Assembly (NCBI GenBank): GCA_903882645.1
Contig: CAIRXZ010000316.1
Location: 1 to 43,983, forward strand
Source: an uncultured Acidobacteriia bacterium
GTDB taxonomy: Bacteria > Acidobacteriota > Terriglobia > Bryobacterales > Bryobacteraceae
Direction of reading: 5' to 3'
DNA length: 43,983 bases
Shown here piece by piece: positions 2,245-42,511 of the stretch (position 1 is its first letter; each line of letters starts with the position of its first letter). A model generated the notes under the pieces. It was not told the origin of the DNA and did no database searches. It saw nothing but the letters and a program-made list of their open reading frames with translations. Both the position numbers and the translations under genes were made by a program.

Positions 2245-2784
2245 ATGAGCTGCTTGGCGGTAGAATTGGGGTCACAACACGTGACTTATCTGATCACCTT
2301 TGCCTGCTACGGATGCCACCTGCACGGCGCCGAATCGGGCTCCGTCGACCGCACGCACAATGTGCATCGGACGCCGGTCCTGGAAGCGGACTTCCCCCGG
2401 GCCACCGCCGGGAGCGGGCTCATGGACCAGGCTCCCTATAACCTGGACGAAGTCCGTCGCGGCGTCGTGTTGGCGGCGATACAAGAGGAATGTACGCATC
2501 GTGGGTGGAGCTTGCTGGCGGCGCACGTGCGGAGTAATCATGTGCATGCGGTGGTTGGCGCGGAGGTTGCGCCGGAACGTATCATGGGCGACTTCAAGGT
2601 TTACGCCAGCCGGCGTCTGAATCGGATGAAGGTGGATGAACCAGGGCGGAAGCGATGGGCGCGTCACGGGAGCACAAGACGGCTGTGGAAACCACAGAAT
2701 GTGTCGGCGGCCATTAGGTATGTCGTTGACGACCAGGGCGAACCGATGGCGGTGTTTGAAGCCCTGGGGATTGAGGGCGTGTGA
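2245..2784 (+). CDS. REP-associated tyrosine transposase (RAYT, Y1_Tnp family)
   Basis: A 179-residue single-domain HUH transposase of the kind that cuts and joins single-stranded REP hairpins. The HUH histidines are in SNHVHAVV (H99, H101). The likely nucleophile is Y120 in DFKVYASRRLN. A basic C-terminal stretch (RKRWARHGSTRRLWKP) follows, typical of the acidobacterial branch. ATG 2245 opens in an HVTYLITFACYGCHLHG-type N-terminus. REP copies lie upstream in both orientations (2073-2235) and one lies right after the stop (2788-2816), as expected for a RAYT domesticated with its own repeats. The stop codon overlaps the possible GTG start of the next gene. Intact and possibly active. Confidence 0.85.
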   Translation: MSCLAVELGSQHVTYLITFACYGCHLHGAESGSVDRTHNVHRTPVLEADFPRATAGSGLMDQAPYNLDEVRRGVVLAAIQEECTHRGWSLLAAHVRSNHVHAVVGAEVAPERIMGDFKVYASRRLNRMKVDEPGRKRWARHGSTRRLWKPQNVSAAIRYVVDDQGEPMAVFEALGIEGV

Positions 2785-5105
2785 GGGAACCGCTCCCTCG
2801 CGGTCGCGGCTCTGACGAGGTCTCGGCTCTAACCGGGGCGGCGGTGGTCCTGATTGGCTTTACCGCGGCTACGGCGCAGATTGTCCTGCTGCGCGAGCTG
2901 ATGGCGGTTTTCGGCGGCAACGAGATGGCGGTTGGGCTGGCGCTTGCCAGTTGGCTGTTCTGGACCGCGGTCGGCAGCGCGCTCGCCGGACGGCTGGCCC
3001 GCCGGAGCGGAGACCCGCGGCGGTTGATGGCCGGGCTTGAGGTCCTGCTCGCGGCTGCGCTGCCGGCGACCATCCTGGCCGTGCGCGCTTCCAAAACAGC
3101 GCTGCAAAGCGTGCCGGGCGAGAGCCTCGGACCGGCTTCCGTGCTGCTGGTTTCGGCCGCCGCGCTCAGTTTTTGCTGCCTGCTTTCGGGAGCGCTGTTC
3201 CCGGCCGGCGCCAGGTTGCTGGGAGCGGAGCCTGGGGCGGCCACCAGCGCGGCGTACGTGCTCGAAGCGATTGGGTCGGTGGCCGGGGGCGCGCTGGCGG
3301 GGCTGGTGTTGGTCCGGTTTCTGGGCGCGCTTCAGATCGCCTGCATGCTGGGACTGCTGAATCTGCTGGCGGCCTCGATGCTCGCGGTTCGCGGCGCGCG
3401 GGTCCGCGGCGCGGCGGTTTGCGCGGTGGCGGCGGCGTTCGCGCTGGTGTGGCTGCCCTTCGGCGTTCCGCGGTTCGAAGCCGCGTCGCTCGCGCGGCTG
3501 TGGCCGGGCTACCACTTGGCGGCCACGCGGAACTCGGCCTACGGCAGCCTGGCGGTGGTGGAGGCGGAGGGCGTCCGCGGCCTGTACGACGATGGCTTGC
3601 TGCTGTTCCATGCGCCCGATCCGGAGAGCGCGGAGGAGGCCGTCCACTACGCGCTGCTCGAGCATCCCGCGCCGCGCACGCTGTTGCTGATCGGCGGCGG
3701 CGCCGGCGGGAGCCTGGTTCAAGCGCTTCAGCACCCGACGCTCGAAAGGGTCGATTACGTCGAACTCGACCCCGCCATCCTGGACCTCGCGCGCGACTAC
3801 TTCCCGCAATTCCGGGCGACCGACTCGCGCGTTCATGTGCACGTGACCGATGGACGCCTGTTCGTGAAAGAAACCGGCGCTGCCTTCGATGTGGTGATTG
3901 TGAACCTGCCGGAGCCGCGCACGGCGCAGTTGAACCGCTTTTACACGCTCGAGTTCTTCCGCGAAGCGGCGGCCAAAATGACGCCCGACGGGGTCCTCTC
4001 GTTCCACTTGGCGGCCTCGGAGAACTACATCAGCCCGGACCTGGCCGAGTTCCTGCGCTCCATCGACAAGACCCTGCGCATGGTGTTCCCGGAAGTCGTC
4101 GCGATGCCCGGCGAGACGGTCCACTTCTTCGCCGCCAAGCGCGCGGGTGTTCTGGCGCGCGATGCCGGAACATTGCTGGCCCGTATGCGCGAGCGGCGAT
4201 TGGCGACGAGCTACGTCCGCGAATACTACCTCCCGTTTCGCATGCCGCCCGACCGGATGGCCGCGCTCGAAGAGCGGATCCGCCCGCTGGCGGCGACGCG
4301 CGTGAACCGGGATTTCGAGCCCGCGGCTTATTACTTCGACGCGGTGCTCTGGAGCGCGCGCTTCAGCCAGGCTTATGCGCGGCTGTTGCGGGCGCTGGCA
4401 AGCGTGAGCTTCGCCGGCTTGGCGATGGGCGTGGGGCTGCTCTCGCTGGCGGCGCTGGCGGCGGGAAGGCTGTTGCCGCGTCCCGAGCAGCGCGCGCGCG
4501 TCGCGGCCGCGAGCTGCACGGCGGCCATGGGCTTTACGATGATCGGCCTCGAGGTGCTGGTGCTGCTGGCGTTCCAGGCGATTCACGGGTCGTTGTACCG
4601 GCAACTGGCGCTGTTGATCGGGGCGTTTATGGGGGGGATGGGCGCCGGCAGTTGGCTGGGCGCGAGATTGGGCGGCGCCGGGGGACCGCTTTCTTACGGT
4701 CGCGGCTCTGAACGGAGACTGGCTTACGCGCAGGCATGCGCCGTGCTGGCGCCTGCGGCGCTCTGCTTGCTAATTCCGATTCTCGCGCGGGCCGGGCAGA
4801 TCACGTTCTTTGGATTAGCGCTGCTGTGCGGGATGCTGGGCGGGTTCCAATTCCCCGCGGCCAGCCGCGTGTTCTGCCGGGCCGGCAAGCAGACCGGACT
4901 GGGGACTCTCTACGCGCTCGACCTGGGCGGCTCGTGCCTGGCGGCGGTGCTGGTGAGCGCATACCTGGTTCCGGTCTTCGGTATCGGCAGGACCGCCATT
5001 CTGGCCGCGGAGCTGAACATGGCTCCGGCCGCGCTGGCAGTGGCCGCGGCCTTCGGAGGGCGCGCGCTTATATCCCCTTCTGTTCCCCAAACACCACCGC
5101 GGTGA
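2781..5105 (+). CDS. Fused membrane / spermidine-synthase-like protein
   Basis: Up to 774 residues. Hydrophobic helices span about 18-225, a Rossmann-type polyamine-synthase domain spans about 245-490, and a second membrane block runs from about 530 to the end. The nucleotide loop is LLLIGGGAGG (301-310), followed by the acidic VELDPAILDLARDYFP motif and a DGR/DVVIVNLPEP segment. This architecture is known as fused MFS/spermidine synthase; its substrate is unproven. The start is doubtful. GTG 2781 overlaps the RAYT stop and would make the first 12 residues translated REP, whereas GTG 2842 opens directly into the first membrane helix. A second, degenerate REP is read in frame at about residues 634-645 (GPLSYGRGSE). 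The 3' end overlaps the convergent Memo-AMMECR1 gene by 38 bp. Confidence 0.85.
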   Translation: MREPLPRGRGSDEVSALTGAAVVLIGFTAATAQIVLLRELMAVFGGNEMAVGLALASWLFWTAVGSALAGRLARRSGDPRRLMAGLEVLLAAALPATILAVRASKTALQSVPGESLGPASVLLVSAAALSFCCLLSGALFPAGARLLGAEPGAATSAAYVLEAIGSVAGGALAGLVLVRFLGALQIACMLGLLNLLAASMLAVRGARVRGAAVCAVAAAFALVWLPFGVPRFEAASLARLWPGYHLAATRNSAYGSLAVVEAEGVRGLYDDGLLLFHAPDPESAEEAVHYALLEHPAPRTLLLIGGGAGGSLVQALQHPTLERVDYVELDPAILDLARDYFPQFRATDSRVHVHVTDGRLFVKETGAAFDVVIVNLPEPRTAQLNRFYTLEFFREAAAKMTPDGVLSFHLAASENYISPDLAEFLRSIDKTLRMVFPEVVAMPGETVHFFAAKRAGVLARDAGTLLARMRERRLATSYVREYYLPFRMPPDRMAALEERIRPLAATRVNRDFEPAAYYFDAVLWSARFSQAYARLLRALASVSFAGLAMGVGLLSLAALAAGRLLPRPEQRARVAAASCTAAMGFTMIGLEVLVLLAFQAIHGSLYRQLALLIGAFMGGMGAGSWLGARLGGAGGPLSYGRGSERRLAYAQACAVLAPAALCLLIPILARAGQITFFGLALLCGMLGGFQFPAASRVFCRAGKQTGLGTLYALDLGGSCLAAVLVSAYLVPVFGIGRTAILAAELNMAPAALAVAAAFGGRALISPSVPQTPPR
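2788..2816 (+). repeat. REP copy 4, at the 5' end of the spermidine-synthase-like gene
   Basis: A 29-bp copy with one change from the core (CCCTCGCGG instead of CCCTTGCGG), starting 3 bp after the RAYT stop. If the next gene starts at GTG 2781, this repeat encodes its residues 3-12 (EPLPRGRGSD). Confidence 0.85.
4685..4711 (+). repeat. Degenerate REP copy 5 inside a coding sequence
   Basis: ACCGCTTTCTTACGGTCGCG followed by GCTCTGA is a diverged copy of the local REP. It is in the same orientation as copies 1, 3 and 4 and is read in frame inside the C-terminal membrane block of the spermidine-synthase-like gene. It adds the loop-like residues GPLSYGRGSE without breaking the frame. Confidence 0.7.
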
Positions 5106-6573
5106 AGCGGAACAGGTCGGCCGCGGCATCCTGCCAGGAGTGCGGGGGCAAGCCGGCTTTGCCGCAGAGCTCTTCGAGATAGGTGGCGCGGTCCCATTTC
5201 TCCTCCACCGGAACCTGCGGCAGAAAGACGCCCTCGCGCTCGTCCTTGCGGAGCAGCAGGCCGTGCCGGCCGATCACGATCTCCTTGGTATCGAGCACGT
5301 GGCGCATGGGTGAGAGCACCGAAATCTCATATTCCAGGGACGGCAACTCGGCGGGGGCGACGGGGCGGAAACGCGAGTCCTGGAGAGCCGCGAAGCGCGC
5401 CACGTCCCGAACCGTAAGGTAGAGAGGCTTGATGGGTGAGACGTAGCCGATGCAGCCGCGAAGCTGGCCGCGCTCCTTCAAGGTGACGAACGCGCCGCGC
5501 TCCTGGTTGAGCGCATCGGAGACCGGCGCGGGCGGCTCGTAGTCCCGGCGGTCCCGCACGGCGGTCTCGACGGACTGGCGGGCGATTCGCAGCAGCTCGG
5601 CCTTTTCCTTGGGGTCCAGCGCGAACGCCGCCTCGCCCGCGCCGGCGCGCGGCTGCTTAAGGAAGGCGACGGCGCCATAGCCCACCACGCGGCTTCGGTC
5701 TCCGCCGGGGACGTCGCCCGAGTTCGCGTACTTCAGGATGCGGGCCTCGGAGGCGCCGAGCCGTTCGGCGGCGATCATGGCGGAGACGATCGGCCCGCCG
5801 CCGCACGCCTCCCAGATTCGCTGCTCGAAGTTGCGCGACAGGCTGAGGTAGTCGAACTCTTCGACGGCCTTCAGCGTCTTGCGGTCGAGCTTCACATCAT
5901 CGTCGTAGGTGTGATAGTGCGAGAGGTCGGAGCTGGCGAGGATCAGCGTGTTGGGCGAGTCCTGGACCAGCTTGGCGAGCGCGACCCCCAACTCGCGTTC
6001 CACCTCGTAGGTCTGGTTGCCCATGACCACCGGCACAATCTGGAACTGCCCGAGCACGCGCTGAAGATACGGCAACTGGACCTCGACCGAGTGCTCGGGC
6101 TTATCTGCGGAGGGCGTGTGACCCACCCCCGAGAGCTTGATGGTCTTGCCCCCGGAGGCCAGCTTGGCGGCGAAAGCGCGATCCACCGGAACCTGCCCCA
6201 GCGGCGTGGCGTAGGCCGCGCCATCGTAGACCGAGGAGAAGCCGAACGGCTCGTAGTGGGAAGGCGCGATGATCACCACGCGGTCCACCTTCCGGCCTTT
6301 GAGCGAGGCGTAGGTATAAGCCGCCACCGGCCCGGAATACTCGTAACCGGCGTGCGGCGCGACGAGGGCCACGGCATCGAGCGGGGCCTGCTTGGCGCCG
6401 GCCAGCAGATCGTCCACGGTTTTCGCCAGCACCTTCGGGTCGGCTGGATAGAACGCTCCCGCAACGGCGGCGGGTCTGACTTTTTGCGTCTGGCCGGTAC
6501 TGACATTGCCGCACTGAACCAACAGCAGGCATGCCAGCGCCGGGACCGCGATCATGGAAGGCCATATCCTCAT
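5068..6573 (-). CDS. amrB: AmmeMemoRadiSam proteins B and A fused (Memo + AMMECR1)
   Basis: A 501-residue fusion. Residues 1-22 are an export signal (MRIWPSMIAVPALACLLLVQ then C21). Residues 33-307 are a Memo-like domain (VRPAAVAGAFYPAD, PHAGYEYSG with H74, HSVEVQLPYL with H161, SSDLSHYH with H219, ACGGGP). Residues 318-500 are an AMMECR1 domain with the signature LRGCIGY (371-377). The AmmeMemoRadiSam set is conserved in bacteria and archaea with unknown biochemistry; A and B are often separate genes. The start at 6573 forms a 4-bp ATGA overlap with the upstream radical SAM gene, indicating translational coupling. C21 is not in a canonical lipobox (Q at -1), so lipidation is uncertain. The 3' end overlaps the convergent neighbour. 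Confidence 0.9.
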   Translation of the reverse strand: MRIWPSMIAVPALACLLLVQCGNVSTGQTQKVRPAAVAGAFYPADPKVLAKTVDDLLAGAKQAPLDAVALVAPHAGYEYSGPVAAYTYASLKGRKVDRVVIIAPSHYEPFGFSSVYDGAAYATPLGQVPVDRAFAAKLASGGKTIKLSGVGHTPSADKPEHSVEVQLPYLQRVLGQFQIVPVVMGNQTYEVERELGVALAKLVQDSPNTLILASSDLSHYHTYDDDVKLDRKTLKAVEEFDYLSLSRNFEQRIWEACGGGPIVSAMIAAERLGASEARILKYANSGDVPGGDRSRVVGYGAVAFLKQPRAGAGEAAFALDPKEKAELLRIARQSVETAVRDRRDYEPPAPVSDALNQERGAFVTLKERGQLRGCIGYVSPIKPLYLTVRDVARFAALQDSRFRPVAPAELPSLEYEISVLSPMRHVLDTKEIVIGRHGLLLRKDEREGVFLPQVPVEEKWDRATYLEELCGKAGLPPHSWQDAAADLFRFTAVVFGEQKGI

Positions 6574-7727
6574 ACGTGGAGCGCTCCTTCCCACACTCCG
6601 GGGATGGTGTTGTGACAGAACCGGCATTTGCCGTTGTCGAGGTTGATGGCGCGCACCGTGAAGCCGGCCCGCTCCACCACCACGCGGCGGCATTTGGGGC
6701 AGCGCGTGCTCTCGGCCGGATGGCCGGGAACATTGCCGACGTAGACGTAGTTGAGGCCTTCGGCGTCGCAGATGGCCTTGGCCCGTTCCAGCGTTTCGAC
6801 GGGGGTCGAAGGCAGGTTTTTCAGCAGGTATTCGGGATGGAACCGGGAAAAGTGCAGCGGCGCGTCGGGGCCGATCTCCGTCTTGATCCAGCGCGCGAGA
6901 GCGCGGAATTCCTGGTCGGAGTCGTTGAGAGTGGGAATCACCAGGTAGACGATCTCGTTCCAGACTCCCTGCTTGCGAATCGCCGCGATGGTTTCGAGCA
7001 CGGGCTTCAGCTCGCCGTTGACCACCTCTTTATAGAACTTTTCGGAGAACGCCTTGAGGTCCACCTTGATGGCGTCCACGCGCCGGCACAACTCCATCAG
7101 GGGTTCCCGCTGGATGTAGCCGCCGGAGATCACCACGCTCTTGATTCCCGCCGCGTGCCCGGCCGCGGCGGCGTCCAGGACGTATTCGCAGAAGACCACG
7201 GGCTCGCTGTAGGTGTAGGCGATGGAGTAGCAGTGGTTCCCGGAAGCCAGGCCGGCGAGCTTGGCGGGCGGAACGTAGTCGGCGCGGACCTGCTCCGGGC
7301 GGACCTGGGAGATTTCCCAGTTCTGGCACATCTTGCAGTTTACGTTGCAGCCCGCCGTGGCTACCGAGAAAGCCATGGTTCCCGGCGCGAAGTGAAACAG
7401 GGGCTTCTTCTCGATGGGGTCGATGTTGGCGGAGCAGACCCGCGAATAAACCAGCGAGTAGTAGGTCCCGCCGTGGTTTTCGCGAACGCCGCAGTAGCCG
7501 CGCTCGCGGTCGTCGATGACGCATTCCCGCGGGCACAGCTTGCACTTGATCTTCTTGTAAGGCAGCTTCTCGTAGAACTTGGCTTCCACGGTGAACTGGG
7601 CGTCGGCCGCAGCCGGGGCCGCCAAGGCCACGCCGGGGGCGAAACAGGGAAGCACGGCCGCTTGAAGGAACTGACGGCGTTTCAGAGCCGCGAACGCCGG
7701 AGAGCGGTCTTCAGGCTTTTTCGGCAT
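6570..7727 (-). CDS. amrS: AmmeMemoRadiSam system radical SAM enzyme with Tat-like signal
   Basis: 385 residues. The radical SAM cluster motif C127-x3-C131-x2-C134 is clear (TAGCNVNCKMCQNW). It is preceded by a Cys-rich segment (CKLCPRECVIDDRERGYCG, 62-79) and followed near the C-terminus by CPKCRR and CRFCHNTIPG. This layout matches the AmmeMemoRadiSam radical SAM family (PflA-related), whose reaction is not known. The N-terminus contains KRRQFLQAAVL (17-27) and an Ala-rich region, as in a twin-arginine signal; this is unexpected for an enzyme needing SAM and reductant. ATG 7727 lies 4 bp after the DUF362 stop, and the 3' end overlaps the Memo-AMMECR1 gene as ATGA. The frame extends further upstream but without resemblance. 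Confidence 0.92.
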   Translation of the reverse strand: MPKKPEDRSPAFAALKRRQFLQAAVLPCFAPGVALAAPAAADAQFTVEAKFYEKLPYKKIKCKLCPRECVIDDRERGYCGVRENHGGTYYSLVYSRVCSANIDPIEKKPLFHFAPGTMAFSVATAGCNVNCKMCQNWEISQVRPEQVRADYVPPAKLAGLASGNHCYSIAYTYSEPVVFCEYVLDAAAAGHAAGIKSVVISGGYIQREPLMELCRRVDAIKVDLKAFSEKFYKEVVNGELKPVLETIAAIRKQGVWNEIVYLVIPTLNDSDQEFRALARWIKTEIGPDAPLHFSRFHPEYLLKNLPSTPVETLERAKAICDAEGLNYVYVGNVPGHPAESTRCPKCRRVVVERAGFTVRAINLDNGKCRFCHNTIPGVWEGALHV

Positions 7728-7731
7728 CCCG

Positions 7732-8700
7732 TTAGACCTCCACCCGCTCGATGAGCGCGGGGTCGTTCGTGCCCAGGGCGTGTTGCGCGTCGGCGGCCCG
7801 GGCGATATAGGCCGGTTCGCGCTTGGCGGCCTTGAGGGACGGCAATCCCTTTTCGGCGCGCTGCCGCTCGATGATCTGCCAGCCGGTGTAATCGAGCGCG
7901 ACCGGGTCGCCGGAGACCAGGAGGCCGTTGAACGGCCACGACCAGTGCGGCATGTAGGACGGCCCGCCTTCGTACTGCGGCGCAATGGCGTCGCAGATGG
8001 CGATGCGCACCTTGCGCCGGATGGGCGGGAGCATGTAGACGTCGGCGACGTAGGGGTCGCCGCAATTGATGTGGTACTTGTTGGGATTGTGAATGGCCCC
8101 GAATAGGTTCTTCAGAGCCATGGTCACGCCGACGATGCCGTGGTCCTTCAACACCGGCAGGTTGATCACGGCGTCGCACTCCTCGGCGATGGTCTTGGAA
8201 ACGAGACTTCCGGCGGACCCGAAGACGGCCAGCTCGGATTGGTAGCCGCCGGCGTCGTTCCCGATGCAGCGGATGCGGTCGCGGCGCGAAGCGACCTGGA
8301 ATCCGGCGCGGTCCAGATCGTCATTGAGGCGGTCCCAAATCACGATGTCCTTGGCTGGAATCCCCGCCTGTTGGAGCCGCTCGCAGACCGCCTCGACCAG
8401 CGCGGGACTCGTCGAGGCGCCCCTTCCGGCGAGGCAATTCACCTTCAGGCCGACCACTTCGCCGGGGCGCGCCAGTTTCTTCCACCCTTCGAGCGGCGAA
8501 TCGCACCGGCACGCCGATTGGACAGCGCGGTCGAGGACTTTCAGCAGGCGCCCCGAATCCACGGCGCCTCCGGAGGGCCGCAAATCCGCGTCCCGCGCGA
8601 CGACCACTCGCGATTTATCACGTCCGCGGGCGCACCCGGCCAGCGCCCCCGCCAAGCCAAGGCGCAACAGACTGCGGCGGCTGGACCCGGAGGGTTGCAT
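7732..8700 (-). CDS. DUF362-domain protein with Tat/lipobox signal
   Basis: 322 residues, first gene of the AmmeMemoRadiSam operon. The N-terminus has SSRRSLLRLGLAGALAGC, a twin-arginine pair (8-9) and a lipobox LAGC with C23. It is therefore likely an exported lipoprotein. The body has DUF362 landmarks: VGLKVNCLAGRGASTSPALVEAV, a VIWDR strand, a central AVINLPVLKDHGIVGVTMALKN segment and a late SGDPVALDYTGWQIIE segment. No ferredoxin-type Cys cluster is present. The ATG at 8700 is preferred over the upstream ATG at 8781 because it directly starts the signal peptide. The three genes are 4 bp apart or overlapping, so they are almost certainly one transcript. Function of DUF362 is not established. 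Confidence 0.88.
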   Translation of the reverse strand: MQPSGSSRRSLLRLGLAGALAGCARGRDKSRVVVARDADLRPSGGAVDSGRLLKVLDRAVQSACRCDSPLEGWKKLARPGEVVGLKVNCLAGRGASTSPALVEAVCERLQQAGIPAKDIVIWDRLNDDLDRAGFQVASRRDRIRCIGNDAGGYQSELAVFGSAGSLVSKTIAEECDAVINLPVLKDHGIVGVTMALKNLFGAIHNPNKYHINCGDPYVADVYMLPPIRRKVRIAICDAIAPQYEGGPSYMPHWSWPFNGLLVSGDPVALDYTGWQIIERQRAEKGLPSLKAAKREPAYIARAADAQHALGTNDPALIERVEV

Positions 8701-10407: not shown

Positions 10408-11934
10408 TTACGACCACTGCAACGTATGCACGGAATCGGCCGGTAAATCCACATCCAGAGCGCTCGTACCCATGAGCAACTGGACGCGCTTCTCCGGACC
10501 GGTATTGGAGAGCACCACCACATAGCTCCCATCCGGATTGCGGAACCCAACGTGAGAGATGGGGCTCTGGGAGGCCGGCGCCGCGCTGTTGGCGCCTATG
10601 CCATCGGTCTGGAAGACCTTGGCTCCATGCTTCACGTGCTTCGAGTAATGCGCCAGCGCCCAGAACCGCGCGCTGCGTGTTACCTTGTGGCTCGCGTTCT
10701 CCACCGTGACGACGCCGGCGCCCATCCTGGGCGTCCGCCGCTGCTCCGCTGACGAAGCGGCCATTCCCCCCGGCCCTTCCCGGATACCGATATACGGCGT
10801 GCCATACTCGTCGAGCGCGATATTCCACATGGTGATCGACCGGCACCAGTTTCTGCACACGTCGTTCGCCCATTGCGCCCACGGAGCCCAGGCCGTCATC
10901 TGGCTGTTGCCGGTTGCGGGGGCCTGTCCCGCAGCCCGCCGCGGTCCACCTTCGGTGAAGTAGGAGGACTTCTGCGGAAACGCGTTGTGTACCTGCGTCA
11001 TTGCGGAAGGCTCGCCCGCATACCCGTGCCACGCGATACCGTCGATGTACTCTTGGGCCCCCTGGTCGGCCAGTTCGGCGATCGCGCGGCCCCAGAGGGT
11101 GAAGTTGTGGTCCAGAACCCAGATCTTGGTTGGGATGTTGTTCTTGCGGAATAGGGGGCCCAGGTACCTGCCCACGAACAGGATCTCGTCTTCCTGCGCC
11201 CACAGGCAGGAGGCATACCGGCCGTCCACCGTAGTGTCGGTTTCGTTCTGCACCGTGATCGCATCGACCGGTACGCCTTCGGCCTTGTAGGCCTCAAGGA
11301 ACTTCAGAAAGTACCGCGAATACGGCTCCAGGGTGCTCTTCTTGATCGTCCCGCCCAGCATGGAACGGTTGAACTTCATCCATCCCGGAGGGCTCCACGG
11401 CGAGGAGAACAGGAACAGGTCCGGATTCTGCTTGCGCGCTTCCTTGAGCATGGGAAGAACGTAAGCCTTGTCGTGATCGATCGAGAACTTCCTCAGCTCC
11501 GGATCGTCCTGTTCGCCATCGTCGTAGCTGAAGAGTTCCTTCGAATAGTCGCTCGACCCGACGCACGTCCGGCAGACGTTCATCGCCATCTCTTCGGGAG
11601 CGAAAAGCTCGTGCATCAGGGCCGCCCGCTCCTCGGCGGGAATCTGGCTCAACACCCAACAAGAGGCGTCCGTCATCGCGGCGCCAAAGCCCAGCATCTC
11701 CTGCCGGGTTGTTCCCGGATCGAGGGCGATCGCATCGGAGGCCACCTCGGTCACGGGTTTCCATGCGAGCGCGTCGCCCGGCGCATGACGCCGGTCCCGG
11801 AACGTGCCCCAGATCCGCACCGGCCCTGAGGCCGCTGCGGCATTGGCCCAGGCCTGACCTTTGCTCGATACCGCCAATGCAGCCGCAGTCGCCGAAGCCG
11901 CCTTCAAGAATACTCTGCGTGAACTATCCGCCAT
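10408..11934 (-). CDS. Exported glycoside hydrolase family 30 enzyme
   Basis: 508 residues. The Tat-type signal is MADSSRRVFLKAASATAAAL (RR at 6-7). The (beta/alpha)8 barrel shows GH30 landmarks: QEMLGFGAAMTDA, SSPWSPPGWMKFN, acid/base E231 in VQNETD, nucleophile E328 in YFTEGG, and an AWHGYAG segment. The C-terminal beta-sandwich runs to ADSVHTLQWS. GH30 members cleave beta-glucosyl, beta-xylosyl or beta-1,6-glucan bonds; substrate is not decidable here. ATG 11934 has a strong Shine-Dalgarno (AAAGGAGAG) 5-6 bases upstream. The GH2 gene lies upstream in the same orientation, about 370 bp away, so the two may share regulation but probably not one transcript. Confidence 0.92.
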   Translation of the reverse strand: MADSSRRVFLKAASATAAALAVSSKGQAWANAAAASGPVRIWGTFRDRRHAPGDALAWKPVTEVASDAIALDPGTTRQEMLGFGAAMTDASCWVLSQIPAEERAALMHELFAPEEMAMNVCRTCVGSSDYSKELFSYDDGEQDDPELRKFSIDHDKAYVLPMLKEARKQNPDLFLFSSPWSPPGWMKFNRSMLGGTIKKSTLEPYSRYFLKFLEAYKAEGVPVDAITVQNETDTTVDGRYASCLWAQEDEILFVGRYLGPLFRKNNIPTKIWVLDHNFTLWGRAIAELADQGAQEYIDGIAWHGYAGEPSAMTQVHNAFPQKSSYFTEGGPRRAAGQAPATGNSQMTAWAPWAQWANDVCRNWCRSITMWNIALDEYGTPYIGIREGPGGMAASSAEQRRTPRMGAGVVTVENASHKVTRSARFWALAHYSKHVKHGAKVFQTDGIGANSAAPASQSPISHVGFRNPDGSYVVVLSNTGPEKRVQLLMGTSALDVDLPADSVHTLQWS

Positions 11935-12092
11935 CCTCTCTCCTTTTAGACACGCCACTGTTTCCTGGAGCGCTTAGGATACTCTGCAGCGACACAAAGT
12001 TCAAGGCCACCGGAGCCCACGAGAGACGGCGGGCCTGTGTATGCCGCGCTCGGCGGCAAAAGTAAGGCGGCGGCACGGGTCATCGAATATCG

Positions 12093-12293
12093 TCAGATTC
12101 CATTGCTGTTGTCCTCGATGGCGAACGCCGTTTCAAAGAAGCCGTCTGCGAAGGAAGTCGCGGTCGCGTAGTCTATGAGTTTCGAGGGCCGCCTACTTTC
12201 AACGGACTTCCGGGCAATCACCCCCGCGAGCCGCGCGCGGCGCTCCTCGCACACCAGCAGGTGCTCCTCGACCGGCGCGGCGTCGGCCTGACC
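12093..12293 (-). pseudogene. Fragment of a small EEHLLVCE-type protein
   Basis: A 66-codon open stretch without a start codon reads DAAPVEEHLLVCEERRARLAG and then continues to a TGA at 12093. VEEHLLVCE.CRARL is the recognisable core; the second Cys of the usual CxxC is replaced by Arg. It is related to the fragment at 10127-10203. Both sit directly downstream of an exported glycosidase gene, which suggests a duplicated gene tail. The rest of the 366-bp gap (11935-12300) holds nothing I can identify. Confidence 0.35.
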
Positions 12294-12300
12294 CTAACTC

Positions 12301-14106
12301 TCAATTCGCTTGCTTAGACCGGTAGAAGTCCTGCATTACGAAGAAGGCCTTCTTTCTCTCGCCGCGGACCGACACCAAGCCCTTACGGTTGAAGTAGTCC
12401 TGAATGCCCGGCAGGCTCCGGCGAGGGCTGCGGAAGTCCATCAGCACCCATGGCGTAGTCCCTCGAAGCGTCGGGATCCGGCTTAACATCTTCACCTGAT
12501 GCTGGAATACGTTCTCCTGGTACTCCTCCGTGAATCTGGCCATCGCGTCGCCGTGCAGGCCGTACAACGCGTCCGCGCCGAATTCGCTCATGATCAGCGG
12601 CTTTTCATAGGCGATTTTCCAGGTGGTGCGGTCGGCCTTGTCGGGCAGACCATCGTACCAGCCCAGGTACTCGTTGCACCCGAGCACGTCGACGGCCGCG
12701 CCCAGAGGGTCGTTGAGAATCACCGGGTTGGCTTCCTGCGTGGCGCCCTCCGAATGGTGCTCCATGGCGGCCGTCAGCAAGCGGGTCGGGTCCTGCGCCC
12801 GCACCTGATCCACGAGTTTCGTCAGGAACGCTGTGCGGGGCCCTCCGACAGGCGTCTCGTTCGCCACCGACCAGAGGATAATCGAAGCGCGGTTCTTGTC
12901 GCGCGCGACGCTTTCCGCAACCTGGTTACTGGCATTTGAGAATGTGTCCTTGTTTTCCCAGTCGATGGTCCAATAGACCGGCGATTCGGACCACACCAGC
13001 AAACCCATGCGGTCAGCCTCGCGAAGCATGTTTTCGTTATGAGGATAATGGGCGAGCCGCACGAAATTGCATCCCATCTCTCTTGCCCAGCCAAGCAGCG
13101 TCCGCGCATCCTCCACGCTGAAGGCTCGGCCGGCGCGGAACGGAGCCTCCTCATGCACCGACACGCCGCGCAGAAAAACCGATTTCCCGTTTAGCAGAAT
13201 CTCCGTCCCGCGCGTTTCGATTGTGCGGAAGCCGATCGGCTCATGTACGGCGTCGGTCTCCGCCGCGATCACCACGTCGTCCAACTTTGGCCGATCGGGC
13301 GACCAGAGCGTCAGGTTTGCTGGAAAACTTACCGCGGCATACCCGTTCGCATCCGTGTTGACCGTGACGGAGGCGCCTGCCTCGGGAATCCCGATGGAGA
13401 CCCGCTGTGCCGCACGGGGTCCGTCCAGCTTCACCCATCCCGCGACCGTATTCTGCGATCCCTTCCTCAACTGCACGAAGTAATCGTGAATATAGGTCTC
13501 CGGGACCTCGATGAGTGAAACGCCACGCGTCAGCCCGCCGTAATTCCACCAGTCGGTGTTGACCGTGGGGACGCCGTCTCGTCGCCGCTTGTTGTCCACT
13601 TTGACGATCACGAAATTATCTTTGGGCCTGACCTTCCCGGTGACCTCGAAGGCAAACGGCGTAAACCCGCCGGTATGCGATCCCAGTTTCTCCCCGTTGA
13701 GGTAGACAATGGCTTCGTAGTTCGCCGCGCCGAAGTAGAGGATCAGGCGCGTCCCGGGTCGAGCCTCGTAATCGAAGGAACGCTTGTACCAGATCGTTCC
13801 TTCATAGAAGAAGAGGTTCTCACGTTGCGAATTCCAATCGCCCGGAACGTCGAGCGTTGGGGAAGAATCGAAATCGTATTCGATGAGCTCGCTTTTGTCC
13901 TTGGGCTTCGCATTCCGGAAATAGCCGTCCGGGGAGGGCTGCAAGCGGTAATCGTAGTATCCGTTTTCGTAAGGGTCCACGATAGTGCGCCACTTCCCAT
14001 CGAGGCTGACGGTGTGGCGTGCGCCTGGACTAGCGATCGCAGTTGCCGGCGCGCCCTGCAACTGCAGACACACGGTCAGAACGGCCAGGGCCGGGAAGAT
14101 TCTCAT
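12301..14106 (-). CDS. Exported glycoside hydrolase family 2 (beta-glucuronidase/galactosidase-like)
   Basis: 601 residues. A Sec signal peptide (1-26) precedes a sugar-binding jelly roll (about 30-200, with DVPGDWNSQ and WYKRSF), an immunoglobulin-like domain (about 205-295) and a TIM barrel (from about 297, GFRTIETRGTEILLNGK). Catalytic residues are E417 in WSVANETP (acid/base) and E508 in IMSEFGAD (nucleophile). NxxLRGVSVHEEAP, FVRLAHYPHNE and TPWVLMDFRSP are typical of the beta-glucuronidase-like branch. I start at ATG 14106 because GGAG lies 8 bases upstream; a GTG at 14115 would overlap the ribosome binding site. It likely works with GH30 in oligosaccharide breakdown. Confidence 0.92.
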   Translation of the reverse strand: MRIFPALAVLTVCLQLQGAPATAIASPGARHTVSLDGKWRTIVDPYENGYYDYRLQPSPDGYFRNAKPKDKSELIEYDFDSSPTLDVPGDWNSQRENLFFYEGTIWYKRSFDYEARPGTRLILYFGAANYEAIVYLNGEKLGSHTGGFTPFAFEVTGKVRPKDNFVIVKVDNKRRRDGVPTVNTDWWNYGGLTRGVSLIEVPETYIHDYFVQLRKGSQNTVAGWVKLDGPRAAQRVSIGIPEAGASVTVNTDANGYAAVSFPANLTLWSPDRPKLDDVVIAAETDAVHEPIGFRTIETRGTEILLNGKSVFLRGVSVHEEAPFRAGRAFSVEDARTLLGWAREMGCNFVRLAHYPHNENMLREADRMGLLVWSESPVYWTIDWENKDTFSNASNQVAESVARDKNRASIILWSVANETPVGGPRTAFLTKLVDQVRAQDPTRLLTAAMEHHSEGATQEANPVILNDPLGAAVDVLGCNEYLGWYDGLPDKADRTTWKIAYEKPLIMSEFGADALYGLHGDAMARFTEEYQENVFQHQVKMLSRIPTLRGTTPWVLMDFRSPRRSLPGIQDYFNRKGLVSVRGERKKAFFVMQDFYRSKQAN

Positions 14107-14409
14107 GATTTTCACTCCAGAAGTTCATTACAGCAGAATGCTCCGCATTCGGGGTCTTGGAGCCGCCTCCCCGTCCGGGTCCAACGCTGTCCACACGGGG
14201 GCCGTGGAAGGCGCGTGAGGTGGTTGCCAATCGACTGCGTGGGAATCCGGATCGGGGAACCACGGCGGCAGGATTGCGGCAGAAGCAGTGGCATTGACCG
14301 GTCGGGCTGGCTGAAATGGTGGGTCAGCCGGCAGCGACCCTAGTACCGGTCGGCCGGTCAATTCCGCTGCGATACCTGGTATAAACGGCGGAGCGATAAT
14401 AAACCACAT

Positions 14410-41068: not shown

Positions 41069-42478
41069 CTAAGCTCCGGCGATCAGTTCGATGCCTTCTT
41101 TGCGGCCCAAGTTGCGCGAGTACTTTCGGGCGTCGTCGTCGTTCCAGTGCTCATGCGCGCCGAGGCTGGCCAGCGCGCCGCCGCCATCGGGGTTGTAGAC
41201 CGTCCCGGACGGGGGCTTCGCCGCTTGCGCCGCTTCGTGGAGGTAGTTGTCCGCGTTGCCGCGGACCTGGGTAGCGCGCGGCTCGCTCCTGAGCAGGTCC
41301 AACGCCACGGAATCGATCGCCACCGGGTCCTGCGACATCAAAATGCTGGAAGCCCAATGGTCGCCGAAGGAGGCCCACCTGAAGACGCTGCCTTCATTGT
41401 GCTCGGCGGTGTACAGACCGTCCAGGATGTAAAGCATCGTCTTGCCGCCGAGGTGGCGGTGCCCCATCAGGTCCACGAGGGCGTTGTAGGAACCCATGGG
41501 CTGAGTCCGCAAGACGCTGTTGTGCAGGATGCGCGGGGACCAACCGCCATCGTTCGGAAAGTGGACGGAACCGAAGTGGTTCTTTCCGATCAACGTGACG
41601 CCGGCCATTCCGTGCGGCCGCAGCAGCGCCATGTTGATCATGTACTTCGCCTCGGTCACCTGGCGCGCAAGATAGCCTGTCGGCACTTCGGTCTTGGAGA
41701 ACCGGATCGGGTTCGCCATGTCCGGCGCGGGGGACATGCGGTCGCCCAGGTTGTAGTCGGCGCCGACCAGAAACTTCACGGCCTGGAATTCACGATTGGA
41801 ATTCGCCCGGATCCGGTTGTGGATCGGTTGACCGACGTTGCGAGCGCCCGTGACATCGTAGACCATGATGTCTTCGCCCCGTACGCCGGCCATTTCGATC
41901 AGTTCCGCGACCAGGGCCACGACGGCGTGAGGGCTGGGCAAGCCATTCTGGGCCGCCATGGGAGGCCCTCCGCCGCGAGCCGCCCCGGAAGGCGCGCCGC
42001 CCGGGGAAGATGCCAGCGCGCCCCACTCCGGGGACCGGTCCTGGTTGCAGTTGATTTTGATCGCGATTCTTTCCCCTGGGCGATATCCGGAACCCCCGAG
42101 CTTGCGGGCATCGTTGAAACTCCGGAACAGCGCGTCCCATGCCTGCTTCTCGTTCCTTCTTCCAGTCAAATTCCGGAGAAGCTGGGAGGTCATGCCATCG
42201 ACCACTTTCTGGTTGGTGTTCGCGTCGTCCCACCAATGGCCCGTGGCGCCGTCCCAACTGGTGGCGTTCGCGTCGCGCACCCATACCACTCTGCCTGGGT
42301 AGATCCCCTTCCCGGCGCCGATCGGATTGTTGGCCGGCTCGCTGGGCTTGAAGGGGTCGGACGGAGCCATCCCGCCCCGTTGTTGCGCGACCGCCTTCCA
42401 TGGCAATGCGAGAGGGACATGAACGAGGCCGGCAGCCGGAGCTGCGGCGAGCGACTTCAAGAAGCACCTTCTGCGCAT
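41069..42478 (-). CDS. DUF362-domain protein with Tat signal
   Basis: 469 residues. The Tat-like signal is MRRRCFLKSLAAAPAAGLVH. The DUF362 body has ERIAIKINCNQDRSPEWG, SPHAVVALVAELIEMAGV, EDIMVYDVTGARN, YMINMALLRPHGMAGVTLIGKNHFGSVHF and SILMSQDPVAIDSVALDLL. It is longer than the 322-residue DUF362 protein at 7732-8700 and carries a Gly/Ala/Pro-rich insert (ASSPGGAPSGAARGGGPPM, about 160-178). AAGGAG lies 9 bases before ATG 42478. The PKD-domain gene is 33 bp upstream in the same direction, so the two are probably one transcript. Function is unknown. Confidence 0.85.
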   Translation of the reverse strand: MRRRCFLKSLAAAPAAGLVHVPLALPWKAVAQQRGGMAPSDPFKPSEPANNPIGAGKGIYPGRVVWVRDANATSWDGATGHWWDDANTNQKVVDGMTSQLLRNLTGRRNEKQAWDALFRSFNDARKLGGSGYRPGERIAIKINCNQDRSPEWGALASSPGGAPSGAARGGGPPMAAQNGLPSPHAVVALVAELIEMAGVRGEDIMVYDVTGARNVGQPIHNRIRANSNREFQAVKFLVGADYNLGDRMSPAPDMANPIRFSKTEVPTGYLARQVTEAKYMINMALLRPHGMAGVTLIGKNHFGSVHFPNDGGWSPRILHNSVLRTQPMGSYNALVDLMGHRHLGGKTMLYILDGLYTAEHNEGSVFRWASFGDHWASSILMSQDPVAIDSVALDLLRSEPRATQVRGNADNYLHEAAQAAKPPSGTVYNPDGGGALASLGAHEHWNDDDARKYSRNLGRKEGIELIAGA

Positions 42479-42511
42479 GGGACTGCTCCTTTCAGATTCC
42501 TCGTCAGAGGT

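Follow-up and report, generated by a model that had tools for sequence, protein, structure and literature searches.

Can a radical SAM (S-adenosylmethionine) enzyme leave the cytoplasm and work outside it? The question is raised by a 43,983-nucleotide stretch of DNA, one whole contig (CAIRXZ010000316.1, assembly GCA_903882645.1) from an uncultured Acidobacteriia bacterium of the Bryobacteraceae and hereafter called the window. On its minus strand, at 5068-8700, lies a run of three genes for a DUF362 protein, an AmmeMemoRadiSam radical SAM enzyme and a Memo-AMMECR1 fusion, each with an export-type N-terminus. No radical SAM enzyme characterised so far is known to work anywhere but in the cytoplasm or in the interior of an organelle. 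Our analysis points to an exported paralogue of the AmmeMemoRadiSam system that exists beside a signal-less copy in the same genome. We consider it very probable that the enzyme is exported, and we favour, with moderate confidence, the reading that this exported paralogue works outside together with membrane partners. The AmmeMemoRadiSam genes are named amrS, amrB and amrA in a figure legend of PMC9062700.

Export signals in the window and among homologues

The operon was read from gene calls, profile matches and N-terminal sequence (Table 1). Coordinates and strand of the three genes agree with a preliminary description of this DNA made from sequence alone; the DUF362 stop is separated from the start of the radical SAM gene by 4 nt, and the latter shares a 4-nt overlap with the fusion gene. 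The enzyme scores 380 bits against TIGR04337 (cut-off 220) and only 55.7 bits against TIGR02493 for pyruvate formate-lyase (PFL) activase (cut-off 231.75). The fusion reaches 260.9 bits with TIGR04336 (cut-off 26) and 176.7 bits with TIGR04335 (cut-off 99), and the Pfam matches across the operon are DUF362, Memo, AMMECR1 and Radical_SAM. Read from the ATG at 7727, the enzyme begins MPKKPEDRSPAFAALKRRQFLQAAVLPCFAPGVALAAPAAADAQ, upstream of CKLCPREC and CNVNCKMC, and its twin-arginine motif is followed by a hydrophobic stretch with an Ala-rich end, as in substrates of the twin-arginine translocation (Tat) pathway. The DUF362 protein begins MQPSGSSRRSLLRLGLAGALAGC, a Tat motif combined with an LAGC lipobox of lipoprotein type that was recognised by eye, and the fusion begins MRIWPSMIAVPALACLLLVQCGN, a Sec-like start in which LVQC is a poor lipobox by the usual lipobox rule. 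The export-type N-termini that the preliminary description had noticed on all three window proteins are therefore present in the sequence. TatC is encoded in the source genome (179 bits, cut-off 132.7).

Table 1. Features of the export-tagged AmmeMemoRadiSam operon and its membrane neighbour in the window
Feature	Coordinates	Strand	Basis
DUF362 protein, 322 aa, Tat motif SRRSLL and lipobox LAGC	7732..8700	-	Pfam PF04015 E 2.3e-23; N-terminus; model
AmmeMemoRadiSam radical SAM enzyme (amrS type), 385 aa, twin-arginine signal	6570..7727	-	TIGR04337; conserved cysteines
KRRQFL twin-arginine core, residues 16-21, then AAVLPCFAPGVALAAPAAA	7665..7682	-	sequence; kept in relatives
CKLCPREC, N-terminal cysteine cluster, residues 62-69	7521..7544	-	cysteines in all 94 signal-bearing and 50 signal-less homologues
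CNVNCKMC, radical SAM CxxxCxxC, residues 127-134	7326..7349	-	cysteines in all 94 signal-bearing and 50 signal-less homologues
Memo-AMMECR1 fusion, 501 aa, Sec-like signal	5068..6573	-	TIGR04336, TIGR04335; Memo and AMMECR1 motifs
MFS membrane protein with inserted spermidine-synthase-like domain (SPD), 774 aa	2781..5105	+	homologues nearby; model; folds; topology

Signal prediction across orthologues, proposed earlier as a check, was carried out by rule on 150 homologous radical SAM proteins. The set was collected with the exported protein as query (best 80 of 564 kept, plus copies fetched later; rows L001 and L083-L104 were left out as identical to, or re-fetched as, other rows) and does not estimate frequencies for the whole family. 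By rule, 82 proteins carry a Tat signal, 9 a Sec or membrane-type start and 59 none, and the export signal on the radical SAM enzyme proved to be conserved. Exported-type homologues, defined by a 480-bit limit on our own profile, passed the Tat rule in 74 of 92 cases; because shuffled N-termini gave a mean of 2.9 and a maximum of 8 (200 shuffles), the motif is more frequent than expected by chance. Two choices made here favour the export interpretation. The Tat rule was loosened after visible motifs, for example that of L004, had failed the stricter version, and six rows labelled 'Tat?' by eye (L112, L033, L021, L054 and L015, 'none' by rule, and L080, Sec or transmembrane by rule) were counted as signal-bearing and enter the tree, partner, cysteine and codon-position counts. 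Signals turn up in each of the 12 phyla to which named contigs belong, which is a list and not a frequency, the query being itself exported: Tat or Tat-like starts in Acidobacteriota, Zixibacteriota, Planctomycetota, Armatimonadota, Calditrichota, Bdellovibrionota, Myxococcota and one Woesearchaeota, and Sec or membrane starts in Elusimicrobiota, Omnitrophota, Goldiibacteriota and Cloacimonadota.

In a maximum-likelihood tree of the 150 proteins, signal-bearing and signal-less sequences separate with 4 changes, compared with 44 when the tips are shuffled; inner branches are often weak (53 of 147 below 80). Four rows of the exported clade stand apart, L066 because it is truncated and L017, L019 and L122 because they show no signal; removal of these four from 54 rows leaves the 50 that we refer to as the signal-less clade. 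Counting without them altered the partner and DUF362-signal figures but not our odds for export, outside catalysis or SAM supply. As far as the tree tells, signal and partner genes are inherited together from essentially one deep split.

A copy from the other side of this split is present in the source genome itself. On contig C27, a second TIGR04337 gene (267 bits) is accompanied by its own Memo-AMMECR1 fusion, and neither protein has a signal by rule. Across 150 Bryobacteraceae genomes and the source genome, TIGR04337 matches over the cut-off fall into two bands, 361-390 and 244-305 bits. The upper-band, exported copy occurs in 23 of the 151 genomes, source genome included; a full-length lower-band copy accompanies it in 22 of these and fragments of one in the last (G037), so the exported copy is an addition to the ordinary one and not a replacement for it. 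A twin-arginine motif is found in 21 of the 23 upper-band genes, although in L092/L015 the hydrophobic stretch is weak; L091/L017 and L100/L122 lack the motif. The lower-band N-termini of 16 Bryobacteraceae loci (L002, L105-L111, L124-L131) were all classified as 'none'. A subset of 40 further copies was fetched from genomes holding the exported one: 34 are signal-less, and many of these begin just ahead of the catalytic domain, within a few residues of it. Tat signals are borne by the other six, all from genomes whose titles name Armatimonadota or Zipacnadia; some genomes thus contain several exported sets, and four of the six paralogues (L148, L157, L165 and L168) have DUF362 alongside. The preliminary description had named homologues starting just before the CxxCPxxC region as the finding that would speak against export. 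They do exist, most of them forming a distinct signal-less paralogous clade that is represented by one copy in the source genome; within the exported clade, three enzymes are without a signal too.

The exported enzyme does not look degenerate. Conservation of its eleven cysteines (four N-terminal, three of the radical SAM motif, four C-terminal) is 98-100% among 94 signal-bearing and 100% among 50 signal-less homologues. For the Memo part, residues H49, H81 and C244 bind the metal in human MEMO1 according to PMC11081632; the PHAGY, SH and CG positions, which we matched to MEMO1 by motif rather than by alignment, persist in 55 fusions of the exported clade, the single irregularity being a gap at the first histidine. 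The AMMECR1 motif LRGCIG is invariant in 55/55 of these fusions except at its fifth position, which is I in 53 and V in 2. Speculatively, this motif might be a loop that carries a glycyl radical and is activated by the radical SAM enzyme. As a separate observation, the Arg of this motif is lost in eight of nine signal-less Bryobacteraceae fusions (L002 61-1452; L109, L111, L125-L130).

The enzyme's Tat signals have a peculiarity of their own. A cysteine lies within their hydrophobic part (window 7605-7664, minus strand; homologues L003-L082) in 74 of 82 signals: 18/19 in Acidobacteriota, 15/15 in Zixibacteria, 9/9 in Planctomycetes and 4/6 in Armatimonadota. CxxC is found in 29 of the 74. The forms are LPC in Bryobacterales-type proteins, CxGC in Zixibacteria and CxxC forms in Planctomycetes. 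Among DUF362 Tat-like starts only 21 of 69 have a cysteine, some being lipobox cysteines; this comparison is rough, as the sequences are related rather than independent and the DUF362 set holds repeats and a few false motifs.

Genes that accompany the exported enzyme

A Memo gene lies within 5 kb of the enzyme in 60/96 signal-bearing rows as opposed to 9/50 signal-less ones, which means that, in the stretches fetched, signal-less enzymes outside Bryobacteraceae are mostly not beside Memo. The export signal that had been pointed out on the window fusion is a conserved trait: it recurs in 54 of the 60 signal-bearing loci with a Memo gene (48 Sec-type, 6 Tat-type; the six without signal include the masked sequence L027), compared with none of the nine fusions beside signal-less-clade enzymes.

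DUF362, whose recurrence the preliminary description had suggested checking, is indeed a recurrent partner. It occurs within 2.5 kb of the enzyme in 69/96 signal-bearing rows and in 0/50 of the signal-less clade; where 2.5 kb of sequence is available on both sides, the figures are 39/54 and 0/28. Its own export signal is less constant. Four of the 70 DUF362 genes adjoining the enzyme are cut by contig ends, and among the 66 judgeable ones an RR motif is present in 45 (spurious-looking by eye in L040) and no twin-arginine start in 21. The latter include all 11 judgeable Zixibacteria proteins, most of which read MSKVVVV right at the start of the domain, and L063, which has a Sec- or lipoprotein-like start; the Zixibacteria gene L047 is a broken frame. 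The statement that all members of the operon carry export signals is thus too broad as a general rule. The lipobox, LAGC in the window, is not visible in most listed relatives. The structural model of the DUF362 protein (pLDDT 92.5) has the fold of the LarA N-terminal domain (LarA/malate racemase, Z 16.6, rmsd 3.2, 208 aligned; first unrelated chain 5.5), and no sequence match was found among solved structures at E 0.1. The fold agrees with the common Pfam clan CL0471 that PMC11770544 gives for DUF362 and DUF2088. Judging from the model, a LarA-type fold may provide a nickel-pincer or related cofactor site. One more, diverged DUF362 protein is encoded in the window at 41072-42511 on the minus strand.

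The third partner is a membrane protein of the major facilitator superfamily (MFS) with an inserted spermidine-synthase-like domain, here termed SPD. Its gene is convergent with the operon and overlaps the 3' end of the fusion gene. Homologues lie within 5 kb in 58/96 signal-bearing rows (35/54 well-flanked) versus 1/50 signal-less rows (1/28; L175), and two distant ones are encoded elsewhere in the source genome. The model (pLDDT 91.9) comprises seven helices, a SpeE-fold domain (about residues 245-514) and six or seven more helices; it matches spermidine synthases with Z up to 30.1 and has an MFS fold (VMAT2, 8wvg: Z 25.7, rmsd 3.6, 353 aligned). With 13 helices as modelled, the loops contain 17.1 Lys+Arg on one side and 4.3 on the other. 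When the helices are instead assigned to a twelve-helix MFS core and an extra pair that flanks the domain, inside loops average 12.9 Lys+Arg and outside loops 1.5, with the same direction in 45/45 homologues; this second reading, which splits one long model helix and was set after the 13-helix result had been seen, is a choice that favours an outward domain. In both readings, the SpeE-like domain is predicted to be extracytoplasmic.

What SPD does is less readily deduced. As a spermidine synthase it was ruled out: the exact GxG(D/E)G, the motif as given in PMC10349129, occurs in 0/59 domains, and an acid at that position in only 16/59. Where the aligned T. thermophilus enzyme has Asp, 36/59 have Asn, reminiscent of the fungal NHMT described there, an endoplasmic reticulum-resident protein with seven helices and a SpeE-like domain that methylates secreted proteins (PMC10349129) and that may serve as a precedent for the use of SAM on the far side of a membrane. 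Two places beyond the conserved acid of the YVELDP motif, Asp is replaced by Arg in 17/59. That SPD has nothing to do with SAM supply seems to us about as likely as not; it would then be a methyltransferase-like membrane enzyme, or would carry some other solute within the same pathway, and either role would be compatible with export of the radical SAM enzyme. The missing motif, the Asn and the Arg all favour such a role; on the other side stand the match of the MFS fold over the entire protein and the retention of the TDGR-loop Asp in 58/59 and of the YVELDP acid (Glu or Asp) in 53/59, two residues that we take to have a nucleoside-binding role.

A less frequent companion is a polyferredoxin in which NapH- and NapG-like cluster domains are fused in one membrane protein. 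It is found within 5 kb in 21/96 signal-bearing rows (15/54 well-flanked) versus 0/50 (0/28) signal-less ones, and DUF6599 within 6 kb in 20/96 (16/54) versus 0/50. The polyferredoxins of L003 and L030 remain under the NCBIfam cut-offs (NapG 95 and 110 bits versus 269; NapH 63-78 versus 213-234). In the source genome, DUF6599, a second Tat-like DUF362 and the polyferredoxin form one run on contig C121 (L138 2460-5694). Comparable runs lie near exported AmmeMemoRadiSam genes in Zixibacteria and in Bryobacterales-type loci, and the analogy with relatives that have the polyferredoxin upstream of DUF362, L003 and L113 for example, suggests that the C121 run may be linked to the window operon. The preliminary description contained neither the signal-less paralogue nor the MFS/SpeE-like and NapGH-like polyferredoxin partners.

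Two other parts of the window deserve mention. An IS200-like transposase gene (Y1_Tnp, E 1.2e-6; 2245-2784, plus strand) lies directly upstream of the SPD gene, and two glycoside hydrolases, GH30 with a Tat-like start and GH2, are encoded at 10408-14115 on the minus strand.

Site of translation start, export and catalysis

Export presupposes that the signal is translated. Were the signals vestigial or misread, translation would start at an internal codon by the catalytic domain and the protein would be cytoplasmic like its paralogue. Internal start codons between signal and CxxC are indeed present in 61/96 signal-bearing genes (ATG in 32), 12 of these 61 with a Shine-Dalgarno-like stretch, and in the window GTG 7589 aligns by eye with the start of the signal-less paralogue; no Shine-Dalgarno-like stretch was seen by eye upstream of this GTG. 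An open frame of less than 40 residues before CxxC, however, occurs in 0/96 signal-bearing genes compared with 34/50 in the signal-less clade. In the signal region of 14 related genes, pairwise differences at codon positions 1, 2 and 3 amount to 533, 303 and 801, and this excess at third positions indicates that the region is translated and under selection. Memo and many DUF362 proteins bear signals as well. On account of open-frame lengths and codon-position differences, a purely cytoplasmic start was judged very unlikely; a second, cytoplasmic form of the enzyme may arise from internal start codons.

If the enzyme is exported, it would fold and acquire its Fe-S clusters in the cytoplasm and then leave by Tat, a Sec-type or anchor start taking the place of Tat in some phyla. 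Memo-AMMECR1 would follow by Sec and DUF362 by its own Tat signal, the Zixibacteria protein staying inside or riding along, and the three would act together at the outer face of the inner membrane. The MFS protein with its outward SpeE-type domain is a candidate supplier of SAM or of a nucleoside derived from it, and electrons might come from NapGH-type membrane ferredoxins. That the radical SAM enzyme catalyses its reaction outside the cytoplasm seems to us at least evenly balanced and perhaps slightly favoured. We regard the complete scheme, with SAM brought out by the MFS protein and bound by the outward domain, electrons from NapGH-type ferredoxins and a pathway around Memo-AMMECR1 and LarA-fold DUF362, as doubtful.

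The chief competing explanation is that the enzyme is used before export: it would act on a partner or on itself while still in the cytoplasm, and Tat would then move the folded, spent or complexed protein, with signal-less DUF362 as a cytoplasmic maturation factor or hitch-hiker. SAM and low-potential reductant are cytoplasmic, Tat is able to carry folded complexes, and the Zixibacteria DUF362 proteins without twin-arginine start are usually encoded directly before the Tat-tagged enzyme. The predominance of Sec-type starts on Memo-AMMECR1 is difficult to reconcile with this, since such proteins should mostly cross unfolded, and so are the nine enzymes that have Sec or membrane starts themselves. 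We consider use before export, including the part it gives to DUF362, rather improbable.

Several observations weigh against an exported enzyme that works outside with membrane partners. Only two to three independent transitions are found on the tree, so the association with partners is inseparable from common descent and is not independent evidence of function. The internal start codons, those with a Shine-Dalgarno-like stretch included, and the 21 DUF362 proteins without twin-arginine start belong here as well. TatC was found in 42 of 50 searched genomes holding the exported copy and was not found in five with Tat-type enzymes (L021, L022, L039, L048 and L056), mostly drafts, although L048 is titled a chromosome. 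By enzyme type, TatC occurs in 36/41 genomes with Tat-type or unclear enzymes versus 5/8 with Sec-type ones (Fisher p 0.11; genome L080 set aside though TatC-positive), too slight a difference to establish that Sec-type starts take over where TatC is missing. On either side of the SpeE-like domain the sequence is itself fairly positive (3.6 and 3.2), which speaks mildly against an outward position. The polyferredoxin is not beside the operon in the source genome, and we know of no quinol-linked NapGH-type carrier that reaches the potential needed by a radical SAM cluster.

If outside catalysis by the exported enzyme is real, an extracytoplasmic radical pathway would be conserved in many phyla. 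An export-tagged radical SAM enzyme with its cysteines intact is directly testable, the signal-less copies in the same genomes providing a natural control. We know of no reaction for AMMECR1, which has a human relative. Nor is one given for MEMO1, the human relative of Memo, in the accessible text of PMC11081632; both families now gain a genetic neighbourhood to work from. A literature search for periplasmic-type radical SAM enzymes, outside which most subscription papers lay, gave no match; papers combining radical SAM and twin-arginine were, by title or abstract, not about an exported radical SAM enzyme, and none linking DUF362 with radical SAM was found in the literature searched. Burroughs et al. 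(2019), cited as a source on Memo-Ammecr1 systems in PMC7159879, may already report parts of these findings.

Relation to known systems

With AmmeMemoRadiSam (TIGR04335-04337), the window system shares all three families, the position of Memo-AMMECR1 beside the enzyme and the cysteine pattern; it differs in its export signals, its own clade and its DUF362, MFS/SpeE-like and sometimes NapGH-like polyferredoxin neighbours. The only solved relative found by sequence for the radical SAM protein is PFL activating enzyme (3c8f, E 1.2e-5), from which it is set apart by extra conserved cysteines at both ends, the signal peptide and a score far below the activase cut-off. DUF362 resembles LarA and malate racemase (DUF2088) in modelled fold and not in detectable sequence. 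SPD resembles fused MFS/spermidine synthases and the fungal NHMT in being a membrane protein with a SpeE-fold domain without the exact GxG(D/E)G (PMC10349129), and is distinguished by an MFS fold in which, according to the model, two extra helices turn the inserted domain outward. The polyferredoxin, finally, has both cluster-domain types of the NapG/NapH quinol dehydrogenase ferredoxins, but fused, below their cut-offs, grouped with DUF362 and DUF6599 and, in the source genome, on another contig.

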